Position numbers and translations under genes: made by a program. The notes under the pieces were generated by a model. It had not been told where the DNA came from, ran no database searches, and saw only the letters and a program-made list of their open reading frames with translations. 64,000 bases of DNA from positions 1 to 64,000 of the forward strand of contig NZ_JAIOAO010000001.1 in assembly GCF_021190955.1 (NCBI RefSeq), given 5' to 3'. Positions 28,388-31,054 of the stretch are shown one piece after another; the first letter of the stretch is position 1; each line of letters starts with the position of its first letter. Source of the DNA: Parachryseolinea silvisoli. Lineage in GTDB: Bacteria > Bacteroidota > Bacteroidia > Cytophagales > Cyclobacteriaceae.

Positions 28388-31054
28388 ATGGTATTCGATT
28401 TAGACATGATCAAAGCCTTGTACGACAAGATGCCTTCGCGCATTACCAAGGCCCGAAAAGTTGTAAACCGCCCACTCACCCTCTCCGAAAAAATACTCTA
28501 CTCCCACCTTCACGACGATCAAACGTTGGAAAATTTTGGAAGGGGCAAGTCGTACGTAGACTTTGCGCCAGATCGCGTAGCCATGCAGGATGCCACCGCC
28601 CAAATGGCGCTGCTGCAGTTTATGTCGGCGGGTCGGCCGAAAGTCGCGGTTCCCTCTACGGTACATTGTGATCACCTAATCGTCGCGAAAACAGGCGCGG
28701 CAGAAGACCTTACTATAGCCAACACCGAAAGCGCGGAAGTATTCAATTTCCTTTCGTCTGTCTCTACTAAATATGGCATCGGCTTTTGGCGGCCGGGCGC
28801 CGGTATCATTCACCAGGTGGTATTGGAAAACTACGCCTTCCCGGGTGGTATGATGATCGGTACCGACTCTCACACGGTAAACGCTGGCGGCCTTGGCATG
28901 GTGGCGATCGGTGTGGGCGGTGCGGATGCGGTAGACGTTATGTCGGGCATGGCCTGGGAATTGAAATTCCCCAAGCTGATCGGTATAAAACTGACTGGCA
29001 AACTGAGCGGCTGGGCTTCTGCCAAAGATATCATTCTGAAAGTGGCCGGTATCCTGACCGTAAAAGGTGGTACGGGTGCGATCGTCGAGTACTTCGGCGA
29101 AGGCGCCACATCCCTGAGCTGTACGGGTAAAGGTACAATCTGTAACATGGGTGCTGAGATCGGTGCTACGACGTCTACGTTCGGATACGACGCGTCGATG
29201 GAGCGCTACCTCATCTCTACCGGCCGTTCTGAAGTTGCCAAACTGGCCAATAAAGTAAAAGAACACCTCACTGCCGACGCAGAAGTATATGCCAACCCTG
29301 AGCAATATTTCGACCAGGTGGTGGAGATCAACCTGTCAGAGCTTGAGCCGCACCTCAATGGTCCGTTTACGCCCGACCTGGCTACTCCTATTTCGAAGAT
29401 CAAAGAAGAAGCTGCCAAGCACGGCTGGCCTACCAAAGTAGAAGTAGGTCTGATCGGTTCTTGCACCAACTCTTCGTATGAAGATATTTCCCGCGCGGCC
29501 AGCCTGGCCCGCCAGGTGGCCGCCAAAGGCCTGAAAACAAAAGCCGAGTTCACCATCACACCGGGTTCGGAAGTGGTACGCTATACCATCGACCGCGATG
29601 GCTTTATCGACGCCTTCGACAAGATCGGCGCCAAAGTATTTGCCAACGCCTGTGGTCCTTGCATCGGTATGTGGAACCGCGTGGGTGCGGAGAAGAAAGA
29701 AAAGAACACCATCGTTCACTCCTTCAACCGTAACTTCCAGTCGCGGAACGACGGCAACCCCAACACGTTTGCTTTCGTAGCGTCGCCTGAGCTGACCACG
29801 GCACTGGCCATTGCCGGTGACCTGACCTTCAACCCGGCTACCGATTACCTCACCAACGAGCGTGGCGAGCAAGTGAAGCTCGACCCTCCTACCGGTGACG
29901 AGCTGCCGAAGAGAGGCTTCGACGCAGAAGATCCGGGCTTCACCGCGCCGGCAAAAGACGGCAGCAAAGTAGTAGTGAAAGTAAGCGATACGTCTGACCG
30001 CCTGCAGCTGCTCGCTCCGTTCAAGGCTTGGGAAGGTACCGACCTGAAAGGTCTGCGTTTGCTGATCAAAGCAAAAGGCAAGTGTACAACCGACCATATC
30101 TCGATGGCCGGCAAGTGGCTGAAATACCGCGGTCACCTCGACAACATCTCAAACAACTTGCTGATCGGCGCTACCAACTTCTACAACGAGAAGACTAACA
30201 GCGTGAAGAATGCCCTCACGGGTTCTTACGACGAAGTACCCAACGTACAACGTGCTTACAAAGCACAAGGTCTGGGCTCGATCGTAGTCGGTGACGAAAA
30301 CTATGGCGAAGGCTCATCCCGTGAGCACGCTGCCATGGAGCCGCGCCACCTGGGCGTGCGCGCCATCCTGGTGAAGTCGTTTGCCCGTATCCACGAAACC
30401 AACCTGAAGAAGCAAGGTATGCTTGGTCTTACCTTCGCGAACAAGGAAGATTATAACAAGATCAAGGAAGACGACACGTTCGATATCGTGGGCCTGACGT
30501 CGTTTGCTCCGGAAGTACCGCTCACGCTGGTAATCCGTCACAACGATGGTACCGAAGAGTCGATCCAGGTGAATCACACCTACAATGCCAACCAGATCGA
30601 GTGGTTCAAAGCCGGTTCGGCCCTGAACCTGATGGCGGCAAAGTTTGCGAAAGAAGCAAAGGCTGCGGCTCCCAAAAAAGCGGCAGCACCTGCGAAGAAG
30701 GCCGCTCCGAAAAAGGCCACGAAGACCGTAGCGAAGGCAGCTCCTAAGACAGCAACAAAAACTGCTTCGAAGGCGGCCCCTAAAAAAGCTGCGAAAAAGG
30801 CGGCACCGAAGAAGGCCACCAAAACGGTAGCGAAGAAAGCTGCACCGAAGAAGGCGGTGAAAGCCGTTGCTAAGAAGGTAGCGAAGAAAGCCGCGCCGAA
30901 GAAAGCGGTAAAGGCTGTTGCAAAGAAGGTGGTGAAAAAAGCCGCTCCTAAAAAAGTGGTGAAGAAAGTAGCCCCTAAAAAAGTGGTCGCTAAAAAGGCT
31001 GTTAAAAGCGCTCCTAAAAAAGCAGCTAAGAAAGTAGCCAAGAAGAAACGGTAA
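28388..31054 (+). CDS. acn: Aconitate hydratase with a histone-H1-like C-terminal tail
   Basis: An 888-residue protein. Residues 1 to ~755 are a complete aconitase (citrate to isocitrate, citric-acid cycle): [23 protein letters not shown] is split over two signature strands, the cluster cysteines lie in [10 protein letters not shown] (~358) and ACGPCIGMW (~422 and 425), and the swivel domain has [18 protein letters not shown]. The usual length ends just after [13 protein letters not shown]. Here ~130 further residues follow with no stop or frameshift, almost only Lys, Ala, Pro, Val and Thr in [12 protein letters not shown] repeats. That part resembles eukaryotic histone H1 tails and bacterial H1-like proteins that bind nucleic acid. 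Confidence 0.93.
30655..31051 (+). repeat. Repetitive coding stretch for the Lys/Ala/Pro tail of aconitase
   Basis: About 400 bp of irregular in-frame repeats (AAAAAAGC, AAGAAGGC and similar) encode [12 protein letters not shown] units of roughly 8-16 residues. Codon choice varies between units (AAA/AAG, GCN), so the tail is kept at protein level and is not a recent slip expansion. Confidence 0.8.

Follow-up and report, generated by a model that had tools for sequence, protein, structure and literature searches.

A mitochondrial-type aconitase with a histone-H1-like lysine-rich tail in Parachryseolinea silvisoli and related Bacteroidota, and its possible place at the nucleoid

Why should a complete aconitase end in a long, almost purely basic tail? 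The question is raised by one gene of Parachryseolinea silvisoli, which lies in the stretch of 64,000 nucleotides analysed here (contig NZ_JAIOAO010000001.1 of assembly GCF_021190955.1, positions 1 to 64,000), called the window below. A preliminary description of this DNA had reported that a single frame passes without stop or frameshift from a complete aconitase into the tail, and that the enzyme has its normal end near residue 755. Both observations were borne out by the open reading frame, the family models, the bovine structure and the sequence motifs. The features on which the argument draws are the following.

27068..27757, + strand: folE, GTP cyclohydrolase I (Pfam PF01227)
27802..28362, + strand: MarR-like regulator, ending 25 nt before the aconitase ATG; 26.2 bits with Pfam MarR_2, cut-off 27 bits
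28388-31054, + strand: aconitase open reading frame with tail; single frame, 888 aa, ATG start, zero internal stops
28388..30649, + strand: aconitase core of the mitochondrial type, residues 1-754 (TIGR01340, PF00330, PF00694, 5acn, motifs)
30650..31051, + strand: histone-H1-like polycationic tail, residues 755-888 (composition, predicted disorder, like tails in relatives)
31052..31054, + strand: stop codon TAA
31075..31110, + strand: probable intrinsic terminator, a GC-rich hairpin followed by a T-rich stretch (by eye)
52378..52959, + strand: ferritin-family gene, 21 kb downstream of the aconitase (open reading frame, PF00210 over cut-off)

The NCBIfam model TIGR01340 (aconitase_mito) matches residues 12-749 along its entire profile (1-745 of 745), with 1138.5 bits against a cut-off of 825.35, and the alignment with bovine mitochondrial aconitase (5acn) covers residues 12-750. 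Of the expected motifs, SCTNSS begins at residue 358, ACGPCIG at 421 and GEGSSREH at 640. In an alignment of 24 aconitases, C359, C422, C425, S643, S644 and R645 are invariant, and we presume the cluster ligands to be among these residues. By these marks the core is a complete and apparently working aconitase of the mitochondrial type. The genome also codes for an AcnA-type aconitase, and the tailed enzyme is therefore not the sole aconitase of its host. That the fusion is an assembly artefact is very unlikely, because six further genomes of the genus share the tail.

The tail itself consists of 134 residues (52 K, 44 A, 16 V, 11 P, 7 T, 2 S, 1 R and 1 E), with five AKKA and nine APKK motifs. 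It is thus long, Lys-rich and acid-poor and carries motifs of the AKKA/PAKKA type, as is typical of histone-H1-like tails; a Pfam search of the tail returned no family. Lysine is encoded by 26 AAA and 26 AAG codons, and all four alanine codons are in use. AlphaFold2 gives a pLDDT under 50 across residues 761-888, behind a helix at 745-760, in a model built from a shallow alignment (24 sequences, mean pLDDT 69.5), and the tail is predicted to be intrinsically disordered. Within its DNA, TRF finds imperfect periods of 15-51 bp, which suggest that the tail probably grew in part by local duplication.

Aligning the aconitases of related genomes had been proposed as a check on conservation of the tail within the clade, and the comparison shows that it is indeed conserved. 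All seven genomes examined from the genus, that of P. silvisoli included, carry it, with open frames of 871-908 aa and tails extending 121-158 residues past the last core motif. The family-level group contributes at least 75 genomes whose tails were read, and distant Bacteroidota contribute 10 (family codes f35, f38 and f49). Aconitase matches were obtained in 342 of 390 genomes, and all tail counts are among the matches listed; eight genomes with frames of 814-850 aa (G247, G260, G270, G329, G337, G339, G349 and G359) fall outside the tail reading. Records named Cyclobacteriaceae bacterium and Cytophagales bacterium (L091-L094) are among the tailed relatives, and the tails of L037 and L246 run off contig ends. 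Tail length is 48-158 residues in the family group and 52-110 in the distant genomes, and net charge +23 to +71 and +25 to +47, respectively. The lysine fraction is 0.41 in the family group and 0.39 in the distant genomes, and D+E amount to 0.7% vs 1.5% (75 and 10 tails). The letters of the tail vary widely across genera; its composition and charge stay.

Codon variation between repeat units had been taken earlier as a sign of protein-level constraint. In itself such variation is no proof, but comparison between species points the same way. Sixteen pairs of close relatives were compared: tail dN/dS lies at 0-0.44 in 15 of them (dS is saturated in the sixteenth), and that of the aconitase core at 0.01-0.04 in the same set of pairs. 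The four gap-free tail pairs give 0.09, 0.03, 0.20 and 0.44; alignment of such low-complexity sequence is biased to identity, and all tail values should be read with this in mind. As far as sequence comparison can tell, the tail is maintained as a polycation under looser constraint than the enzyme, given a dN/dS well under 1 and a constant make-up.

A few relatives depart from this pattern. G335 has no tail, whether lost or never had, and eight 24-bp tandem repeats (CAGAATAAGCTAGTTTTC core) lie downstream of its tail-less aconitase (L187). At L030 (G344) and L178 (G348), loci of two genomes closely related to each other, the tail frame ends early and Lys-rich coding continues in other frames. 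Sequencing error is possible in these two cases, because folE is also fragmented in both assemblies.

A second enzyme of the P. silvisoli genome bears a tail of the same kind. This enzyme, a peroxiredoxin of the BCP/PrxQ type by its match to PRK09437 above cut-off, ends in ~115 residues of H1-like K/A/P sequence (L007:988-1794, corresponding to C7:1369319-1370125); across the family group, 43 of the 47 BCP tails read measure 27-55 residues. When 88 genomes of this group were scored for both enzymes, 41 had both tails, 4 the aconitase tail only (G021, G098, G264 and G236), 1 the BCP tail only (G335) and 42 neither, so that 41 of the 45 genomes with a tailed aconitase also have a tailed BCP. The BCP of G236 has a 14-residue end containing KKK, below the scoring threshold. 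Two further genomes (G050 and G068) have a BCP tail without a scored aconitase, and the count excludes G364, with a gene cut at the contig end, as well as G344 and G348 with their broken aconitase tail frames. For part of the untailed genomes, absence was scored by open-frame length or by a stop at the core end. The pairing gives a Fisher p of 2.7e-19 with phylogeny ignored, a value to which we attach no weight, and a phylogeny-aware test had four usable pairs, too few to reach significance; the pairing in the family group amounts to one or two independent events. Nor is it general, because of 25 distant genomes 10 have a tailed aconitase and none has a tailed BCP.

How selective the tagging is can be judged from G176, a single-contig relative, in which the open reading frames of 1.6 Mb (47%) were scanned for Lys-rich, acid-poor 30-residue stretches. 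The matches were BCP, the aconitase, two small basic proteins and one implausible 40-aa open reading frame, and K tails are rare and selective at least in the part of G176 scanned. The two small Lys-rich proteins have 83 and 86 aa (C1:2744517 and 2907157; L383 and L391), the first being encoded ~5 kb from citrate synthase. In P. silvisoli, a weak search with the aconitase tail as protein query (E<=1) returned the aconitase itself, BCP, a 44-aa basic protein and a topoisomerase-I-like open reading frame. With the BCP tail as query (E<=10), BCP itself, the 44-aa protein and the aconitase tail (E 7.8) were recovered, and the topoisomerase-I-like frame was missed. The 44-residue protein (contig C13, L008:1498-1632) is made almost purely of short repeat units, a stand-alone miniature H1-like protein with no Pfam or NCBIfam match. 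The topoisomerase-I-like frame (contig C7, L172:1-1617; identified by eye) has a short K/A/T-rich C-terminal end.

The history of the tail was followed on a tree of 130 aconitase cores from which the tail had been removed (85 tailed, 43 untailed and 2 with a broken tail frame); two thirds of L040-L063 and L066-L090 and all of the named loci L091-L170 were left out of it. Tailed rows occupy four places: core I, to which the window belongs (84-100% identity to the window core), core II (about 73-77%), an f35 group and an f38/f49 group. Tail state changes four times on this tree, or five if the broken rows are given their own state, and starred branches force these changes. Because the tree is unrooted and quick, it does not separate gains from losses with certainty. 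Cores I and II share one host clade, both being found within genus codes g16 and g18. Trees of BCP and folE, both short of columns, mix core I and core II hosts; G185 has a core-II aconitase, yet its folE falls in a group with eight core-I hosts supported at 99*. These mixed trees suggest that the enzyme lineage was seemingly exchanged in these bacteria while the tail was kept or regained, and the host seemingly retains a tail whichever aconitase lineage is present. The lineages found in g16 and g18 are ~75% identical to each other and in several cases both adjoin folE, which may be read as a sign of in-place replacement via recombination.

The genes around the aconitase were considered as possible partners. 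A MarR regulator 25 bp upstream had been pointed out in the preliminary description. The position is correct, and a MarR-like gene stands between folE and the aconitase in all seven genomes of the genus and in some outside it; a link to tailed aconitases specifically did not hold, and the MarR_2 score is just under its cut-off. MarR was rejected as a tail-specific partner, since MarR-like genes also adjoin untailed aconitases (L187, L219, L221, L224, L225 and L227), and many other tailed loci have folE, a frequent upstream neighbour in the clade, directly upstream instead.

On the downstream side, a ferritin gene follows 15 of 81 tailed loci (>=900 nt flank) vs 0 of 42 untailed ones, a difference confounded with host clade in that only about 16 untailed rows come from the family group. 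The distance, taken to the start of the aligned part, is within 150 nt in 14 of the 15 and 971 nt in the other. Ferritin lies directly 3' of the tailed aconitase at L194, L198, L199, L201, L203, L204, L215 and L217, among others. In seven core-II loci, the ferritin ATG was found by eye 2-15 nt past the aconitase stop, a spacing that suggests that core-II aconitase and ferritin form an operon. The adjacency hints at iron, within one host clade only. The ferritins themselves bear no K tail in any of the 14 read to their stop, one of which lies beside the broken-tail aconitase of G348; at L199 the ferritin frame stops prematurely, and at L019 the frame is probably truncated by the end of the locus.

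What, then, might the tail do? We propose that a selectively maintained, disordered polycation anchors an apparently working aconitase to a polyanion, which is most likely nucleic acid and above all that of the nucleoid, that BCP is anchored likewise, and that the arrangement protects DNA; for this reading as a whole we see the balance as even. With a charge of about +50, the tail would hold the aconitase electrostatically to its polyanion, foremost nucleic acid in the nucleoid, and BCP/PrxQ would be held alongside, in the same host clade, by its shorter tail of like make-up. This would bring two enzymes to the DNA, one a [4Fe-4S] enzyme sensitive to oxidants and iron and the other a remover of peroxide, and there they would pack or protect it. 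The parts of this proposal differ in strength. On chemical grounds, a tail of this composition very likely binds some polyanion; DNA is likely to be the main one; and that protection of DNA is the purpose is a guess, albeit one that fits an oxidant-sensitive Fe-S enzyme in the company of a peroxidase. Nucleic-acid binding by the tail, the main idea of the preliminary description, survives the comparison and would be well founded by analogy with the K/A/P tails of HbhA and AlgP, and the nucleoid is proposed because such tails bind DNA and because yeast Aco1 offers a parallel. A polycation cannot tell DNA from RNA or polyphosphate, and these two give the serious rivals.

An aconitase that regulates RNA is one of them: the tail would make RNA binding stronger, and once its [4Fe-4S] cluster was lost the enzyme would become an mRNA binder, perhaps on ferritin transcripts in the manner of IRP1. 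Bacterial aconitases do bind RNA under iron shortage, according to two papers (PMC7430163, PMC4150767), and the ferritin genes behind 15 of 81 tailed but 0 of 42 untailed loci, with seven core-II ATGs 2-15 nt away, would suit such a role. We nevertheless consider it unlikely: the BCP tail would go unexplained, host clade confounds the association with ferritin, and the window has its ferritin gene 21 kb away, with a terminator-like hairpin behind the aconitase. IRE-like target RNA, the mark of an IRP1-type system, was not seen in the loci scanned or in the window, as the Rfam IRE model found none in 10 loci at E<=5 and none in the window at gathering scores, and the CAGUGH loop was absent from 14 intergenic stretches and three window stretches. 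Somewhat less likely still is anchoring to polyphosphate or storage granules, in which the tail would act like the H1-like tail of AlgP and bind polyP or form a bridge between granules and nucleoid. According to PMC9239181, polyP granules have AlgP associated with them and depend on it for even spacing. At its N-terminus, however, AlgP has a predicted helical domain and no enzyme, and the aconitase locus offers no pointer to polyP.

Three further explanations carry still less weight. A low-complexity tail might have grown by slippage and simply be tolerated, as the imperfect periods of 15-51 bp, the spread of 48-158 residues in the family group, the tail-less G335 and the broken frames of G344 and G348 would allow. 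Drift of this kind is improbable in view of a tail dN/dS well under 1, the near absence of acidic residues across 85 tails, the equal use of both Lys codons in the window tail and the occurrence of tails on two core lineages of one host clade. Substrate and product of aconitase are polyanions, and the polycation might instead dock acidic partner enzymes of a TCA metabolon or gather the citrate trianion for channelling. This we regard as quite improbable, since it again leaves the BCP tail unexplained. Citrate synthase ends without a K tail in each of six tailed genomes examined, and 0 of 7 isocitrate-dehydrogenase-family frames read, of 14 matches, ends in one (the reading leaves out L421-L425, L430 and L431, where the open frames of the matched genes are 372-428 aa). 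In the 494-aa isocitrate-dehydrogenase-like frame of L427, a Lys-rich window at position 356 is internal and was rejected as a tail. Untailed partners are weak evidence against a metabolon, because a partner need not bear a tail itself. The least probable explanation, with very little in its favor, is a second product: translation would also start at a Met just before the tail and release a free H1-like protein of about 140 residues. A Met is found there in 70 of 75 tailed proteins of the family group, but also in bovine aconitase and in 4 of 36 non-distant untailed rows, and it is missing from all 10 distant tailed proteins.

If anchoring to the nucleoid is the right reading, a wider one can be put forward tentatively, and with more doubt than confidence: one clade of Bacteroidota would tag very few enzymes, aconitase and BCP/PrxQ, with H1-like tails for oxidant and iron chemistry on the chromosome, and the link between aconitase and nucleoid would have arisen independently several more times in bacteria, on different lineages. 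Enzyme and tail type are each known; their combination and the second tailed enzyme seem undescribed, and a search of the open-access literature, with subscription papers mostly outside its scope, found no description of a K-rich tail on aconitase or BCP. When an aconitase moonlights on DNA or RNA, a single fold commonly serves both this role and catalysis, and the two are difficult to tease apart. In the tailed enzymes, the part proposed to contact nucleic acid could be cut away: some relatives have the tail and others lack it, and within one host clade two enzyme lineages carry it. A simple truncation would thus test whether cells couple citrate or Fe-S status to the care of the genome. The parallel tail of the peroxiredoxin suggests that bacteria have an antioxidant layer held locally at the DNA.

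Among known systems, the closest in function may be yeast Aco1, a DNA-binding aconitase to be set beside a window protein of the mitochondrial type (TIGR01340). To our knowledge, the yeast enzyme has no polycationic extension, whereas the bacterial proteins have a dedicated one, from which we infer their DNA binding. Aco1 is reported to bind and protect mtDNA independently of catalysis (PMC7463775). CitB and AcnB are likewise aconitases with an iron-tied side job on nucleic acid, but there RNA is bound by the apo enzyme, and the available sections of the sources (PMC7430163, PMC4150767) make no mention of an H1-like tail.

Likeness in the tail itself is found in proteins of other kinds. Mycobacterial HbhA and HupB have a C-terminal AKKA/PAKKA tail that binds DNA, and in HbhA the C-terminal domain of 39 residues (161-199), with five AKKA as in the window tail, is reported to be both necessary and sufficient for this binding (PMC10665949). 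The body that carries the tail is an adhesin or an HU protein in those cases and an enzyme in ours, and the HbhA domain of 39 residues compares with 134 in the window. Pseudomonas AlgP and PhaF share with the window protein a long, disordered, K/A/P-rich C-terminal domain. PMC9239181 describes for AlgP a KPAA-repeat region of 154 residues and a net charge of +55, and KPAA-repeat peptides that bind DNA in vitro. The window tail differs from it in using AKKA/APKK-like units with Val in place of the KPAA repeat, and in following an aconitase where AlgP has a predicted helical N-terminus.
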